Below, piece after piece: positions 4,851 through 43,339 of a DNA stretch of 64,000 nucleotides (the stretch's first letter is position 1; each line of letters begins with the position of its first letter). The stretch is from Balneolaceae bacterium. Lineage in GTDB: Bacteria; Bacteroidota; Rhodothermia; Balneolales; Balneolaceae. The notes under the pieces are model-generated. The model had not been told where the DNA came from, did not search any database, and worked only from the letters and a program-made list of their open reading frames with translations. A program made the translations under genes and the position numbers. Location: the NCBI GenBank assembly GCA_017795005.1, contig CP051242.1:868001-932000 (forward strand), given 5' to 3'.

Positions 4851-6557
4851 TTAATTCTTAAAAGTATTCTTTTCGATTAATTCTCTTGCGCTAATTAGTG
4901 CTGCATCTGAAATTTCTGAACCACTCATTAAGCTTGCGACTTCACGAATATGCTCTTCCTGAGAAAGAGGAATGATCTTAGTAACCGTTCGTTCCTCTTC
5001 TTCTATTTTAGCGACTTTATAATGATGATGTGCCTGACTCGCAATTTGGGGTTGATGGGTAATTGCAACAATTTGGCAACGATCTGAGAGGCTTCTCATA
5101 GATCGGCCAACTTTTTCAGAAACCTCGCCACTGATTCCCGTGTCGATTTCATCAAAAATCATAACAGGTAAACTCTGTTCTTTGGCGAATATGGATTTCA
5201 GCGCCAGCATTACGCGACTTATTTCACCTCCCGAAGCAATCTTTGCCAGTGGCTTTGGTTCTTCTCCTTTATTGGTGGAGATGAATAAACGGATATCATC
5301 ACAACCATACTCAGTACATTCAATGGACAGCCCATCAATTTCGATCCAGCCGCGTTGTATTTGTAACCAATCTACTCGTACTGCTAATTTCGAGTTAGGA
5401 ATTCCCAGTCTCGATAACTCTTCTTCAATATTGGATGCAAGCTTTTGTCCAACTAATATTCTTTCATTATGCAGCTTAGTAGCTGCAGAAGCCAAGGTAT
5501 TGGATTGAGAAGCAACAGCTCCTTCGAGCTTTTCGATTTCCAGATCAAAATTATCTGCAATTGAAAGTTCCCGTTGGATTTCAGCCAGATAAGAAATCAA
5601 CCCCGGAATATCCCGATGATATTTTTTCTGAAGCCGGTTTAACTCTGCTTGTCGTTGTCGAAATTCTTCGAGTCTCTGAGGATTGAATTCAATAGTATTT
5701 CGGTAACGCTCAGCGAACTGGACCGCTTCATTCACACTTACACGTGCCGCATTTATTTCTTCCAGATAAGACTCAAACTCAGGTTCAATACGGGCAAGGT
5801 CTTCCAGATTTAACTTAAGCTTATTTAGAAGTTGGAGAATATCAGCATCATCATTTTCAGCGAGCTCAGAAATAGCCGCAGCTTTTTGATCAAGCACTTC
5901 AGCATTATCTAACAAGTTCATTTCGGCTTCAAGTTCTTCTTCTTCATCTACAGATAATCGTGCTTGCTCCAATTCATTTACCTGAAAACGGTAAAGCTCA
6001 GTTTTTTCCTGAAGTTCAGATTCTCTTTTCTTAAGTGATGAAAGTTCCTTTTGTAAGGTTTTCATTTTTAAGAATTCAGATTGATAGGATTTCAGTACGG
6101 GTTCAATTTCACCAAAACTATCAATTACTCCGCGATGATTTTCTTCTTTCAATAATAGTTGGTGGTCGTGCTGACCATGTAAGTCCACAAGTAAATCACC
6201 CACAGCTTTTAGCACGCTTATATTTACTGGAGTATCATTAATGAAAGCCCGACTTCCGGTTTGCCGGATTTCTCTTCTAAGGATTAAGTACTCTGTGAAT
6301 TCAACTTCATTTTCATCGAGTAAAGTTCTTAATTCAGAGTTATTCCCAACTTTGATCGTAGCTTCTGAAATAGCTTTATCAGCTCCCCGACGAATTACTT
6401 CCGTATCAGCTCGTTCGCCCAGAATCATATTCAGTGCTCCGATAATGATTGACTTTCCCGCACCGGTTTGGCCTGTCAGGATATTTAGTCCTTCATTAAA
6501 CTGAACCTCAAGTTCATCAATTAATGCGAAATCTTTTATGTACAATGATTGAATCAT
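4851..6557 (-). CDS. recN: DNA repair protein RecN
   Basis: A 568-residue SMC-like ATPase of normal length for RecN, which tethers and organises double-strand-break ends before RecA-dependent recombination. Visible parts: Walker A 'GQTGAGKSIIIGAL' near residue 30; a long central coiled coil rich in Glu, Leu and Lys (about 150-370); ABC-type signature 'IASGGEISRVMLAL'; Walker B 'VMIFDEIDTGISGEVS'; D-loop and H-loop region 'IVAITHQPQIAS'. The N-terminal 'IQSLYIKDFALIDELEVQF' is the typical RecN start. The neighbouring four-helix-bundle cassette begins 2 bases upstream of the start codon, so the recN promoter must lie in or beyond that cassette. Confidence 0.97.
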   Translation of the reverse strand: MIQSLYIKDFALIDELEVQFNEGLNILTGQTGAGKSIIIGALNMILGERADTEVIRRGADKAISEATIKVGNNSELRTLLDENEVEFTEYLILRREIRQTGSRAFINDTPVNISVLKAVGDLLVDLHGQHDHQLLLKEENHRGVIDSFGEIEPVLKSYQSEFLKMKTLQKELSSLKKRESELQEKTELYRFQVNELEQARLSVDEEEELEAEMNLLDNAEVLDQKAAAISELAENDDADILQLLNKLKLNLEDLARIEPEFESYLEEINAARVSVNEAVQFAERYRNTIEFNPQRLEEFRQRQAELNRLQKKYHRDIPGLISYLAEIQRELSIADNFDLEIEKLEGAVASQSNTLASAATKLHNERILVGQKLASNIEEELSRLGIPNSKLAVRVDWLQIQRGWIEIDGLSIECTEYGCDDIRLFISTNKGEEPKPLAKIASGGEISRVMLALKSIFAKEQSLPVMIFDEIDTGISGEVSEKVGRSMRSLSDRCQIVAITHQPQIASQAHHHYKVAKIEEEERTVTKIIPLSQEEHIREVASLMSGSEISDAALISARELIEKNTFKN

Positions 6558-6559
6558 GT

Positions 6560-6593
6560 AATTATAAATTTTGGATTCTGAATTTTGAATTAT
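6560..6593. repeat. Left arm of heptad inverted repeat flanking four-helix-bundle gene (6.6 kb cassette)
   Basis: A 34-nt arm that is the inverted copy of 6946-6979 with 32 of 34 positions identical. It reads as heptads (ggattct, gaatttt, gaattat). It abuts the stop codon of the gene at 6594-6947 and lies 2 bases from the recN start codon. Confidence 0.85.
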
Positions 6594-6947
6594 TCAATTC
6601 GAGTTCTCTTGAGAGGTTTTGATAATTGAGGTAAGGATATTAACGATTTGTTGAATTTCATGTAAGTGAGTAGATACATCAATTTTCGTAAGTTCACTTT
6701 TTTGAAGCAGCCTCAACCAATATTTAGTTTCTCTCGCTTCTTTGGATGATATAGATAGTTTATGGATGAAGTCCTTTCTTGATTGTCCGGCTAATGCTTC
6801 TTCTAAGTTAGCTCCAATGCTTGTGCCAGATCTCAAAATTTGCTTAGAAATTACATATTCTCGTTCTTCTTGAAGTTTCATATACAAATCAATGATTAGT
6901 AAAGAGAAATCAAAACTTTTCTGTTGTATAAGGTTATCTTTAGGCAT
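6594..6947 (-). CDS. Four-helix-bundle protein (S23/IVP-like), cassette copy 1
   Basis: A 117-residue, mostly helical protein of the family first seen in 23S rRNA intervening sequences and related to the Avd protein of diversity-generating retroelements. Family marks: 'LRSGTSIGANLEEALAGQSRKDFIHKL' (the central R-S-x-S-I-x-x-N-x-x-E motif) and 'SSKEARETKYWLRLL'. No rRNA or reverse transcriptase is nearby, so its role here is unknown; the family is thought to bind RNA or act as a basic oligomeric scaffold. The ORF starts in one inverted arm and stops at the other, so it fills the stem-loop. It separates recN and rluD and is transcribed with recN. Confidence 0.85.
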   Translation of the reverse strand: MPKDNLIQQKSFDFSLLIIDLYMKLQEEREYVISKQILRSGTSIGANLEEALAGQSRKDFIHKLSISSKEARETKYWLRLLQKSELTKIDVSTHLHEIQQIVNILTSIIKTSQENSN

Positions 6948-6979
6948 AATTCAAAATTCAGAATCCAAGATTCATAATT
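6946..6979. repeat. Right arm of heptad inverted repeat (6.6 kb cassette)
   Basis: Inverted partner of 6560-6593. It contains the first two bases of the start codon of the four-helix-bundle gene, so the arm forms the entire 5' leader. Heptad words: aattcaa, aattcag, aatccaa, gattcat. Confidence 0.85.
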
Positions 6980-7021
6980 TTTAGGTAAGACCATGATTCT
7001 GAGAATTCCTTACAAAAAGTT

Positions 7022-8023
7022 TTGAGCGAGAAAGAAAAAACAATCTACGAATTTACAGTACCTCAGGGGCAGGAGGAGTCAATCCGACTAGATGCGTATA
7101 TCACAGGTTTTGTTGAAAACGCAACTCGGAATAAAGTACAGAAAGCAATTAAAGACGGATATGTATGGGTAAACAGTAAACATGAGAAACCCTCATATAA
7201 GATGCTTCCGGGTGACAAAATATATATTGAGTTACCGATCGCTCCACCACCAGAAGCTAAACCGGAAGAACTTGATCTGAATATTATTCATGAAGATGAT
7301 GACCTGATTGTAGTGAATAAAGAAGCGGGAATGGTAGTACACCCTGCATATGGGAATTGGACGGGTACCTTAGTAAATGGTTTAATGCATCATGTAGATG
7401 AACTTGCCGGGGAGGAGGAAGATGAAAATATCCGACCAGGAATTGTCCATCGACTTGATAAAGACACCAGTGGTTTGTTGGTGGTTGCTAAAAATGATGA
7501 AACACTTGCGGTACTTTCAGCAAAATTTGCTGAGAAAGATGTTGAGCGAACCTATTGGGCAATTATCTGGGGAACACCTGCTGAAGAAGGAACTATTGAA
7601 GGAGATATTGGTCGCTCTAAACATGATCGCAAACTCATGACCGTACTTCCCGATGGAAGAGGGAAACATGCGGTTACCCATTACAAAGTACTCGAATACT
7701 TTGATTATCTCAGTTTAGTGGAAGTGAAATTGGAAACCGGCAGAACACATCAGATCAGAGTGCATATGGCCCATATTGGGCATCATGTTTTTGGTGATAC
7801 TACCTATGGAGGAACTTCTGTTCGTTACGGACCCAATACAGGTCAGCGCAAAGTGATGTTCCATAAACTGATTACCGGGCTGGGAAGACAAGCCCTTCAT
7901 GCAAAAACATTGGGTTTTGATCATCCAAAATCAGGGGAATTAGTTAGCTTTAATTCCGAACTCCCGGAAGATTTTCAATATGTGCTGGATACATTAAGAG
8001 ATAAATGCAGGGCAGAGTATTAA
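7022..8023 (+). CDS. rluD: RluD-type 23S rRNA pseudouridine synthase
   Basis: A 333-residue RluA-family pseudouridine synthase. N-terminal S4 RNA-binding domain at about 20-85 ('LDAYITGFVENATRNKVQKA'); catalytic motif with Asp in 'RPGIVHRLDKDTSGLLVVAK'; conserved 'TGRTHQIRVHMAHIGHHVFG' further on. The family member RluD modifies U1911, U1915 and U1917 of helix 69 in the large subunit. The frame has no ATG upstream (a TAA lies at 6986), so the start must be the TTG at 7022; the product then begins 'SEKEKTIYEFTVPQGQ', as expected for the family. No lspA neighbour, unlike the usual arrangement in Proteobacteria. Confidence 0.92.
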   Translation: MSEKEKTIYEFTVPQGQEESIRLDAYITGFVENATRNKVQKAIKDGYVWVNSKHEKPSYKMLPGDKIYIELPIAPPPEAKPEELDLNIIHEDDDLIVVNKEAGMVVHPAYGNWTGTLVNGLMHHVDELAGEEEDENIRPGIVHRLDKDTSGLLVVAKNDETLAVLSAKFAEKDVERTYWAIIWGTPAEEGTIEGDIGRSKHDRKLMTVLPDGRGKHAVTHYKVLEYFDYLSLVEVKLETGRTHQIRVHMAHIGHHVFGDTTYGGTSVRYGPNTGQRKVMFHKLITGLGRQALHAKTLGFDHPKSGELVSFNSELPEDFQYVLDTLRDKCRAEY

Positions 8024-11507: not shown

Positions 11508-12044
11508 TCAATCTCCAAATAGAGTCAAAGGTAGATTAGATGAGCCATCTATATAGAATCTTGCAGAAGAATATTCCCAATCTAATTCAGTAGCAACCAA
11601 TCCAGCTTTTACAGGGTTATGGTGAATGTAATTGATCTTTTGCTCCATAATTAAATCAGAACTGATTTGTTTTGGGTGAAATCCCTCTGACCATAATTGA
11701 TATTCACGGTCTATTTTATGCTTTAATTTATTATTTCTTAGAGAAGCTAATGTATCTTCAAAGTTTTCTTCCTCCAGATGATCTATAATTCTTCTTGCGG
11801 TAAAAGATTTAAAACTGGAAACATGTTTTGCTAAATCTTTTCCTTCAGCAATGAAATGAATATGGTCTGGCATAATCACGTAGGCATATAGCCTGATGCT
11901 TCTTTCTTTAATTAAGAATCTTAACCCGTCAATGATGATTGAATTAATTTTAGGATTGAGTAATAAAGGTAATTTCCCAACTACACATGAAGTTATAAAG
12001 TAAGGATAGTTCTCATTCAAGATTTTGTATCTGCTTCTTCCCAT
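11508..12044 (-). CDS. REP-associated tyrosine transposase (RAYT)
   Basis: A 178-residue Y1_Tnp (IS200/IS605-like HUH) protein. The metal-binding HUH motif is H61-x-H63 ('MPDHIHFIAEG') and the catalytic Tyr is 139 in 'KINYIHHNPVKAGLV', the hallmark of RAYTs. RAYTs are single-copy domesticated transposases that nick and spread REP palindromes. Here the gene lies between inverted REPs (11481-11505 and 12107-12131), as in described REPtrons, and three more REPs of the same sequence lie within 2 kb. The length and motifs look intact, so it could be active. Confidence 0.92.
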   Translation of the reverse strand: MGRSRYKILNENYPYFITSCVVGKLPLLLNPKINSIIIDGLRFLIKERSIRLYAYVIMPDHIHFIAEGKDLAKHVSSFKSFTARRIIDHLEEENFEDTLASLRNNKLKHKIDREYQLWSEGFHPKQISSDLIMEQKINYIHHNPVKAGLVATELDWEYSSARFYIDGSSNLPLTLFGD

Positions 12045-34571: not shown

Positions 34572-36113
34572 ATGTTAGCAAGAGTTTACTGTGCATCAAC
34601 GGTTGGAGTTGATGCCAAAATTATAGATGTAGAAACCCATCACACAAATGGATTAGTAAAATTTTTCCTGGTTGGGCTACCAGATAGAGCAGTTTCTGAA
34701 TCAAGAGACAGAGTAGAGGCAGCTATCCGAAATACAGGTTCTTATTATCCACTTGGAAGAATTACTGTAAATCTCGCTCCCGCAGATCTCCCAAAAGAAG
34801 GAAATGCGTTTGATTTACCAATAGCAATTGGTTTACTCAGGATGTCTGGACAGATTCATACCGAAAAACTCGAAGAGACAGTAATGCTTGGTGAATTAGC
34901 TTTGGATGGAAAAATACGTCCTATCAAAGGAGTACTACCTGTAGCTGTAGAAGCAAAAAAACAGGGTTATAAATACCTCATAGTTCCAAAAGAAAACGGA
35001 GCTGAGGCTGCTGTTGTAGAAGGAATTGAGATTTTTCCGTTTGAACACCTAAATCAGGTAAAAGACTGGCTTGAAAACAGGGGAAGTATGGAGTCATTTA
35101 GTATTGATGTTGGAAAAGTATTCAGTCAAAACGGGAAAATGGATGTATTGGATTTTAGTGATGTTCGAGGACAGGAGAATGTAAAAAGAGCCTTAGAAAT
35201 AGCTGCAGCAGGCGGACATAATGTAGTGATGGTTGGACCTCCCGGTTCAGGTAAAACTATGATGGCAAGAAGAATTCCGACAATTCTACCTCCACTTTCA
35301 TTAAATGAAGCGCTTGAAACTACAAAAGTTCATTCAGTTTCGGGTTTAATGAAATCAGGAAAGGCGCTTATTACATCGAGACCTTTCCGGGCACCACATC
35401 ACACCGTTTCTGACGTTGCTTTAGTTGGAGGAGGAGGAATCCCTATGCCCGGAGAAATTTCAATGGCTCATAATGGAGTGCTATTTCTGGATGAACTACC
35501 GGAATTTAAAAGGAGCGCTCTAGAAGTTATGCGACAGCCCCTAGAAGATGGGTTTGTTTCGATTTCAAGAGCCAGAATGAGCGTAACTTATCCGAGCAGA
35601 GTGATGTTAGTAGCTTCTATGAATCCTTCCCCATCCGGAGACTGGTATAATCCTCAGGAAATGAATGGAACATCTTCTATTCAGATGCAGCGATATCTGA
35701 GTAAAATCAGCGGACCACTTTTGGACCGAATAGATCTTCACATCGAGGTTAATAAAGTGGGCTATGATGAACTTTCTGGGAAAGCGAAAGGAGAATCTTC
35801 GAAAGAGATTCGGGAGCGAGTAATTGAAGCTAGGGAAGTCCAGTCGCGACGATTTCTTGGATTGAAAGGGGTATACAGTAATGCACAAATGAATACCCGG
35901 CAAGTGAGGAAGGTTTGTGAATTGGATAACACAAGTTCGGAAATTTTGAAGAAAGCCATTACCTCGCTTGGACTTTCAGCAAGGGCATATGACAGAATTT
36001 TAAAAGTAAGCAGAACAATCGCAGATTTGGATAAATCCGAAAATATCCAATCACACCATGTAGCAGAAGCTATTCAATACCGAAGTCTGGACAGAGAAGG
36101 GTGGTTGGGCTAA
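34572..36113 (+). CDS. comM: YifB/ComM-family Mg-chelatase-like AAA+ ATPase
   Basis: A 513-residue protein. N-terminal ChlI-like Lon-fold domain ('GLVKFFLVGLPDRAVSESRD', 'LAPADLPKEGNAFDLPIAIG'), central AAA+ with Walker A 'GPPGSGKTMMARRIPTILPP', sensor and Walker B 'GVLFLDELPEFKRSALEVMR', and a C-terminal ChlI domain ('LGLSARAYDRILKVSRTIAD'). The family member ComM is a hexameric branch-migration helicase that extends heteroduplex during natural transformation. I use the symbol for family membership; competence in this organism is not shown. Divergent from DUF4342. Confidence 0.92.
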   Translation: MLARVYCASTVGVDAKIIDVETHHTNGLVKFFLVGLPDRAVSESRDRVEAAIRNTGSYYPLGRITVNLAPADLPKEGNAFDLPIAIGLLRMSGQIHTEKLEETVMLGELALDGKIRPIKGVLPVAVEAKKQGYKYLIVPKENGAEAAVVEGIEIFPFEHLNQVKDWLENRGSMESFSIDVGKVFSQNGKMDVLDFSDVRGQENVKRALEIAAAGGHNVVMVGPPGSGKTMMARRIPTILPPLSLNEALETTKVHSVSGLMKSGKALITSRPFRAPHHTVSDVALVGGGGIPMPGEISMAHNGVLFLDELPEFKRSALEVMRQPLEDGFVSISRARMSVTYPSRVMLVASMNPSPSGDWYNPQEMNGTSSIQMQRYLSKISGPLLDRIDLHIEVNKVGYDELSGKAKGESSKEIRERVIEAREVQSRRFLGLKGVYSNAQMNTRQVRKVCELDNTSSEILKKAITSLGLSARAYDRILKVSRTIADLDKSENIQSHHVAEAIQYRSLDREGWLG

Positions 36114-36137
36114 GAACATTGAACATTGAACAAGGAA
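36112..36137. repeat. Left heptad arm (36 kb cassette)
   Basis: Begins in the stop codon of the comM-like gene. Words aagaaca, ttgaaca, ttgaaca, aggaatt, ttgaaca with period 7. The first 14 bases (36112-36125) are the exact inverse of 36560-36573; this arm has one extra TTGAACA unit. Confidence 0.8.
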
Positions 36138-36167
36138 TTTTGAACATAGAAATAAAAGACTTGGGAT

Positions 36168-36533
36168 ATGACTGAAAATAAGAAATATGATTTACATGAA
36201 AGATTAATCAGGTTTTCGATCTTGATTTTGAAGGTGGTCGATAACTTACCTAAAAGTTATGCAGGAGTTCATTTTGCTAAACAGTTAGTTAGGTGTGGAA
36301 CAGCCCCTGCCTTTCATCATGCCGAAGCACAAAGTGCAGAATCAAGAAGAGACTTTATTCATAAAATGAAGATTGCTGTCAAGGAACTAAGAGAAACATA
36401 TATCAACCTCAAAATCATTAAAAGAAAGCCACTTTTGACTGATCAAAAAGTAGAGGAGGCAATTGAAGAGTGTAATGAACTAATCTCAGTTTTTGTAAAG
36501 AGTATTCAGACAGCAAGGAAAAACCTGAACTAG
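36168..36533 (+). CDS. Four-helix-bundle protein (S23/IVP-like), cassette copy 2
   Basis: A 121-residue helical protein of the same family as the one at 6594, but clearly diverged in sequence: 'LVRCGTAPAFHHAEAQSAES', 'RRDFIHKMKIAVKELRETYI'. Family hallmark positions (R-C/S-x-x-x, the R-D-F-I-H-K block and the K-E-x-R-E-T helix) are kept. It sits between heptad inverted arms between the comM-like gene and priA. Function unknown. Confidence 0.85.
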   Translation: MTENKKYDLHERLIRFSILILKVVDNLPKSYAGVHFAKQLVRCGTAPAFHHAEAQSAESRRDFIHKMKIAVKELRETYINLKIIKRKPLLTDQKVEEAIEECNELISVFVKSIQTARKNLN

Positions 36534-36540
36534 CAAATAG

Positions 36541-36573
36541 TTCAAAGTTGGATGTTCTTTGTTCAATGTTCTT
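36541..36573. repeat. Right heptad arm (36 kb cassette)
   Basis: Words aaagttg, gatgttc, tttgttc, aatgttc with period 7; TGTTCAATGTTCTT at 36560-36573 is the perfect inverse of the outer left arm. The gene's stop codon is 7 bases upstream. Confidence 0.8.
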
Positions 36574-42973: not shown

Positions 42974-43339
42974 ATGAATGAACAGGTGAAGAGTTTTGAA
43001 GACTTATTAGTTTGGAAAGAAGGTGTCCGATTATGTATAGATGTGTATTGTTTATTAAAAGGATCCAGAGATTTTGGACTTAAAGATCAAATGCAGCGTT
43101 CATCGGTTTCAGTTCCATCTAATATTGCAGAAGGCTTTGAACGAAATACCAATAAAGAGTTTATTCGCTTTCTCTATATAGCAAAAGGTTCTTGTGCAGA
43201 GTTAAGAACTCAACTTTATATTGCAATTAAAGTTGGAGAGATTGATGAGCAAACAGGAAAGAAACTCATTGAAACAGCAAAATCAATCTCATCTATGCTG
43301 CATGGTTTAATAAAAACCAGAATTGAAAAATTCAGTTAG
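42974..43339 (+). CDS. Four-helix-bundle protein (S23/IVP-like), cassette copy 3
   Basis: A 121-residue helical protein with the clearest family signature of the three: 'SFEDLLVWKEGVRLCIDVYC', 'LKDQMQRSSVSVPSNIAEGF', 'FIRFLYIAKGSCAELRTQLY'. It matches the consensus of the 23S-rRNA intervening-sequence protein family, but the setting is between scpB and rluB. Function in this position is unknown. Heptad arms with opposite purine/pyrimidine bias flank it. Confidence 0.9.
   Translation: MNEQVKSFEDLLVWKEGVRLCIDVYCLLKGSRDFGLKDQMQRSSVSVPSNIAEGFERNTNKEFIRFLYIAKGSCAELRTQLYIAIKVGEIDEQTGKKLIETAKSISSMLHGLIKTRIEKFS

Follow-up and report, generated by a model that had tools for sequence, protein, structure and literature searches.

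Proteins of the S23 (IVP) family are encoded within some intervening sequences (IVSs) of 23S rRNA genes, and to our knowledge their function has been an open question ever since rRNA IVSs were described. In the 23S rRNA IVS of Coxiella burnetii, an S23 ORF lies in sense between terminal inverted repeats of ~28 bp, the total being ~430 nt; the 5' arm contains two to three copies of the heptamer GACAGAT depending on the strain, and the ORF has been characterized as decaying (Warrier et al., 2016, PMC4990558). These heptamers are the one precedent that we found in the literature for the arms described below. Our searches, which covered open-access papers and are no proof of novelty, yielded neither a description of heptad arms at free-standing S23 genes nor a function ascribed to such genes.

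Here we analyze a 420-bp unit of similar architecture, an S23 ORF between terminal inverted repeats, that lies in an intergenic spacer of a Balneolaceae genome (G000), within a window of 64 kb (the whole stretch of DNA that was analyzed). We consider that it is probably a member of a widespread group of compact, mobile-like cassettes, each made of one S23/IVP gene between locus-specific inverted heptad arms. Such cassettes would correspond, in intergenic DNA, to the ORF-bearing IVS of 23S rRNA, with a pentameric S23 ring binding the heptads and host enzymes carrying out copying or insertion.

The recN–rluD unit

The S23 gene (6594–6947, minus strand, 117 aa) is enclosed by two 34-nt arms, a left arm downstream of the gene (its 3' arm, 6560–6593) and a right arm upstream of it (its 5' arm, 6946–6979), which match at 32 of 34 positions when inverted (94% complementarity). 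The stop codon directly abuts one arm and the ATG shares 2 nt with the other, so that the whole unit consists of arm, ORF and arm. Downstream, on the same strand, is the host gene recN (4851–6557, minus strand), and on the other side is rluD (7022–8023, plus strand), which is divergent; both were named from sequence and synteny. This layout had been proposed in a first-pass annotation, and it was confirmed by a search for inverted pairs, in which the two arms were the sole pair found in 6400–7200 and their score of 60 exceeded the best of 5000 dinucleotide shuffles (47). When the 64-kb window was scanned in 25-nt steps with identical geometry, a score of 40 was reached only at this locus. Sequence resembling the focal arms is also present singly elsewhere in the genome. 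Because the congener G001 retains the matching bases, the two mismatches between the arms can be assigned to changes in the right arm. The window contains no rRNA at Rfam gathering thresholds, in agreement with the earlier description of an rRNA-free recN–rluD spacer.

The ORF matches PF05635 (E 5e-25, 88.2 bits vs a curated cut-off of 33.8) and TIGR02436 (E 5.5e-30, 103.8 bits vs a cut-off of 24), which establishes the S23/IVP assignment, and its AlphaFold prediction has four helices (pLDDT 95), as the proposed four-helix bundle requires. Among solved structures, 2RLD (BT_0352) comes closest, with TM 0.87, Z 19.6 and 51% identity in the structural alignment, followed by 2GSC (XCC0516). Both entries contain five chains each, and XCC0516 is reported to be a homopentamer in work cited in PMC4990558. 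Comparison with the G001 ortholog (dN 0.058, dS 1.16, dN/dS about 0.05) demonstrates that the focal S23 protein is under strong purifying selection. The S23 gene is the only ORF of the unit: the transposase by which a transposon or insertion sequence is recognized is lacking, and no nuclease or reverse transcriptase (RT) lies beside the gene within the cassette.

Inverted heptad arms at S23 loci

The focal genome has 15 PF05635 matches. Two of them (L015 and L016, G000:C1:1766-2080 and 3724450-3724764) appear to be one S23 copy, which recurs close to either end of the sole contig; these ends are probably redundant sequence of a circular assembly. Beyond this apparent duplicate, no near-identical S23 copies were found at different sites of the genome, and no very recent transposition is seen. 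Two further S23 genes share the window with the focal gene. The first, at 36112–36573, has an ORF at 36168–36533 (plus strand) between 34-nt arms of the AACATTGAACA type (36112–36145 and 36540–36573); the second, at 42974–43339, has weak arms, and its flanking genes overlap each other in congeners.

For each S23 gene, we reverse-complemented the downstream flank and aligned it with the upstream flank of the same gene, using mispaired flanks as the control, in 103 loci from the taxonomic family and in a cross-phylum set of 79 loci from named genomes. The latter are mostly Bacteroidota but also include candidate-phyla bacteria, Acidobacteria, a Clostridia bin and others, and their taxon labels may err because many of the genomes are metagenome bins. 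The median flank score was 37 vs 22 for mispaired flanks in the family set, with 42% vs 1.5% of scores reaching at least 40, and 41 vs 22 in the cross-phylum set, with 54% vs 3.2% reaching at least 40. Only 1.4% of the non-S23 genes in such loci reached 40, compared with the 54% for S23, while about 20% of the loci have no arms detectable at a score of 30. No rRNA was found around the S23 copies at six loci of the focal genome or at 20 cross-phylum loci. The idea that the arms are generic AT-rich intergenic hairpins beside an ordinary gene was rejected as a general account on the basis of the mispaired-flank and other-gene controls, together with the period and polarity described next.

The arms are built of degenerate 7-nt tandem units, and each locus has its own version. 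Autocorrelation rises to 1.42/1.46 at lag 7 and again at lags 14 and 21, where control DNA is flat, and the period of 7 with its harmonics recurs in the cross-phylum set. A loose common consensus, TNAGWWK, scores 1252 vs a maximum of 879 under a null that keeps the period and permutes the columns within each arm. The median ungapped arm is 31 nt long, that is four to five units. The focal arms match the TNAG consensus only loosely; the left arm, as the reverse complement partner of the right arm, contains units such as GGATTCT, GAATTTT and GAATTAT. The 5' arm is C-poor on the S23-sense strand, therefore the polarity of the arms is fixed relative to the gene.

Arm sequence also follows the protein. 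S23 genes that are at least 60% identical and stand at different sites have an arm similarity of 0.43–0.64, vs about 0.26 for unrelated S23, and arm similarity tracks S23 similarity across sites with a Mantel r of 0.21 in the full set and 0.27 in the named set alone, above all 1000 permutations. These relationships, together with the joint presence or absence of arms and gene described below, suggest that the two travel together or co-diversify.

Presence, absence and renewal of the arms

The order of recN and rluD is maintained through the family, and 16 genomes have an S23 gene between them (truncated to 76 aa in G031), while at least 10 syntenic genomes do not. In the tree, the 16 recN–rluD S23 proteins group together without intruding paralogs, with weak basal support (0.33), which indicates an old rather than a recent insertion. 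The first-pass annotation had read the unit as a unit of transfer and had suggested a comparison of recN–rluD spacers for clean presence or absence. That proposal holds in part: at least 10 syntenic relatives lack the gene and, at other sites, arms and ORF come and go together and related S23 have related arms; recent transfer at recN–rluD itself is not supported because the gene is inherited vertically in the 16 genomes.

This vertical inheritance could also mean that the host has domesticated S23, perhaps as a regulator that acts in the recN leader, with the arms as operator or autoregulatory sites and with mobility only ancestral. The strong purifying selection on the protein and its position upstream of recN, in sense, are compatible with such a role. 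However, at least 10 syntenic relatives do without the gene, paralogs of the same architecture adjoin unrelated genes, and a selfish element selected on its own protein predicts equal constraint, so we regard domestication as improbable.

A promoter-like motif of the form TTGTAAGG..TCTTAC lies upstream of the cassette (6985–7015, minus strand; read from sequence). Motifs of the TTGTAAGG..N..TCTTAC type are found in recN–rluD spacers with and without S23, which argues that the motif belongs to the host spacer and not to the cassette, and also ahead of S23 genes that have at least one neighbor running the other way. Judging by these sequences, the 6985–7015 copy is probably the recN promoter and the motif possibly a promoter type of the lineage. 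In one genome (G007, L033), the recN–rluD spacer has another small ORF, DUF559-like by its look, beside a CCCCCTTTATAAAGGGGG palindrome in place of S23, so the site there holds a small-ORF cassette of a different kind.

Evidence for gain or loss as a unit comes from thirteen other S23 sites of the focal genome, which we located in two congeners (G001 and G002). Five are empty in both (L009, L011, L012, L015 and L019) and four are occupied in one congener only (L014, L017, L020 and L022). L021 has S23 in all three genomes, as does L023, where the type differs in G000, and L013 could not be assigned because its right flank was not located. L010 is empty in G002 and is a remnant in G001, with both arms kept and the inside shortened; L020 is likewise a remnant in G001, with one arm array kept. 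The clearest examples are L011, L010 in G002, and L012, where the empty state consists of two host genes that nearly touch or overlap, without arms. Presence or absence as a unit at orthologous sites, as expected of a transposon, is thus found at several paralogous sites and, at the focal site, only at the level of the clade; in part the pattern could reflect loss and not gain. We had considered L023 as a case of total arm replacement at one site and dropped it: the S23 genes in the same gap of G001 (L227) and G002 (L230) are only 25–28% identical to that of G000, so the site was either hit twice or had its gene replaced.

The empty sites also bear on whether the arms are a target, that is, whether the cassette enters the loop of pre-existing palindromes. 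rRNA IVSs are located at hairpin tips, and arm-only hairpins exist at L006 in the focal genome and in the recN–rluD spacer of G012 (L032), where arms of inverted heptads (AATTAGGAATTACGAATTAAGAATT) with no S23 ORF between them score 49 vs a null maximum of 37. Against this, no arms were found at the empty sites L011, L009, L012, L010 (in G002) and L015, and in seven of the eight empty recN–rluD spacers that were fully tested, as well as in G046, no inverted pair exceeded the shuffles, G037 being only marginal. Arm type, moreover, goes with S23 type across different sites. Since the arms of L032 are either what a deletion left behind or an element made of arms alone, and arm-only cases may equally be deletion remnants like L010 in G001, we find a palindromic target very improbable.

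The cassettes are mostly oriented with their surroundings. Taking as neighbors the longest ORFs and not annotated genes, both neighbors run in the S23 direction at 68 cross-phylum loci and both against it at 2; in the family set, the counts are 56 and 25. A TTGTAAG...CTTAC promoter-like motif lies upstream at 15 of 40 family loci in which one or both neighbors run against S23, vs 5 of 56 (Fisher p 0.0009), which suggests that S23 expression matters for retention.

Arm sequences at recN–rluD have turned over while their complementarity has persisted. We compared 14 genomes, leaving out G008, whose arms are further out, with a 22-nt insertion. For pairs with an S23 identity of 0.5–0.7, homologous arms score about 25, which is background, vs 39.7 for the two arms of one genome. 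At high S23 identity the arms change independently, one at a time in the close orthologs G000–G001 and G005–G044, and it is only once identity drops below about 80% that a genome's own arms match better than homologous ones. From genus to genus the arms are no longer recognizably similar, yet the left arm of each genome continues to match its right arm, so both have been rewritten together. Our data therefore demonstrate that the arms at recN–rluD are renewed as pairs over long times, and 22 sites taken jointly point in the same direction, more weakly than the strong signal at recN–rluD (Wilcoxon p 0.04). A site-pattern count (concerted 278 vs control 12 at 65–80% identity) is not relied on, because it is biased by the selection of arms for their match. 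It had been anticipated that a conserved gene with unconserved arms would speak against a cassette; in the clade, the gene is conserved and the arm sequence is not, but the arm complementarity is.

Long-conserved complementarity despite sequence change is also what selection for an RNA stem would produce, the arms then forming part of a leader stem, or of an intervening sequence in the mRNA, that RNase III cuts. The enzyme excises rRNA IVSs within such a stem (PMC4990558), the cassettes lie in sense within transcribed regions, and the focal RNA does fold with its arms paired (–87.2 kcal/mol, z –3.96). This fold, which the first-pass annotation had suggested checking, is an in silico result that any inverted repeat would give. 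Among arm mismatches, G-U pairs (159) are not in excess over A-C (143, p 0.39), so that RNA-stem selection left no wobble signal in the mismatch counts, and the single-arm changes in close orthologs argue against it as well. The RNA-processing cassette proposed earlier, which had the rRNA IVS precedent alone behind it, thus finds no backing in the mismatches, and we consider an RNA stem unlikely. The lack of a G-U excess is no proof, but it favors something at the level of DNA, for example a site to which a protein binds, or copying from arm to arm.

A proposed mechanism and its relation to known systems

In the model that we prefer, the mobile-like cassette is gained and lost as arm, ORF and arm, and it occupies the narrow spaces that separate genes, mostly in the same direction as its neighbors. 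A pentameric S23 ring would probably bind about five heptads (~35 nt) per arm, about one heptad per subunit, and binding at both ends would assist copying or insertion of the unit, with the nuclease and the polymerase coming from the host. Over time the arm pair is rewritten; the probable route is a DNA-level one, with copying, or a switch of template, from one inverted repeat to the other. The recN–rluD copy is, on this view, an old insertion upstream of recN that has since been inherited vertically.

We believe that there is a credible case for a wider, overlooked class of elements. More tentatively, free-standing S23 genes may be the cores of minimal mobile elements that span phyla and do without a transposase, their ring protein recognizing its own heptad arms at about one heptad per subunit, with arm type and protein co-diversifying and the arms rewritten in concert. 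For a protein whose structures have been solved, the heptad arms supply a specific ligand prediction, mobility becomes directly testable, and the paired rewriting of long inverted arms is an unusual evolutionary pattern in need of explanation.

Several known systems resemble the cassette in part. Homology between PF05635 and Avd, a protein of diversity-generating retroelements that acts in an RNA–RT complex, has been proposed (PMC10053308). The Avd structures (4DWL, 8UB7/8UB8) align with the focal S23 at Z 14.0 for 8UB8 and 13.4 for 4DWL (VIA-align, 108–110 residues), a likeness in fold at about the level of generic, unrelated helical bundles (13.6) and below that of 2RLD (19.6). Unlike these retroelements, the focal unit has no template or variable repeat, and its genome has no RVT_1 match, so the RT that defines such a system was not found; an RT acting in trans from the same genome was discarded on the same ground. 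RAYT/REP systems also place a small gene between inverted elements and have related solo elements elsewhere, but S23 has no Y1 transposase domain, and its arms have a period of 7 and are locus-specific, not a fixed palindrome. A small ORF in the window (11510–12044, minus strand) looks by its sequence like a RAYT-type Y1 transposase and is flanked by a 28-nt GC-rich inverted pair, CCTCGTTCCGATGCTCTGCGTCGGAACG.

In Beggiatoaceae, Cyanobacteria and some Bacteroidetes, arrays of the heptamer TAACTGA occur near start codons, and relatives have shorter gaps at these places; the arrays are described as direct repeats of one fixed unit, and S23 genes are not mentioned in that report (MacGregor, 2015, PMC4679880). 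The reverse complement, TCAGTTA, matches TNAGWW, whereas S23 arms are inverted and locus-specific. It is our guess that these arrays are solo arms of S23 cassettes, which may thus explain heptamer arrays beside genes in several phyla.

In family and fold, the focal protein is like the free-standing TIGR02436 proteins BT_0352 (2RLD) and XCC0516 (2GSC). In architecture, the unit is like the Coxiella 23S rRNA IVS, with terminal inverted repeats around an S23 ORF and with heptameric arm repeats that hold for the class and only loosely for the focal arms. It differs in lying between recN and rluD and not in a 23S rRNA gene, in having arms that differ at every locus and many copies per genome, and in a protein under purifying selection. 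If free-standing S23 genes are indeed the cores of mobile elements, the rRNA IVSs would be merely the special case that landed in rRNA.
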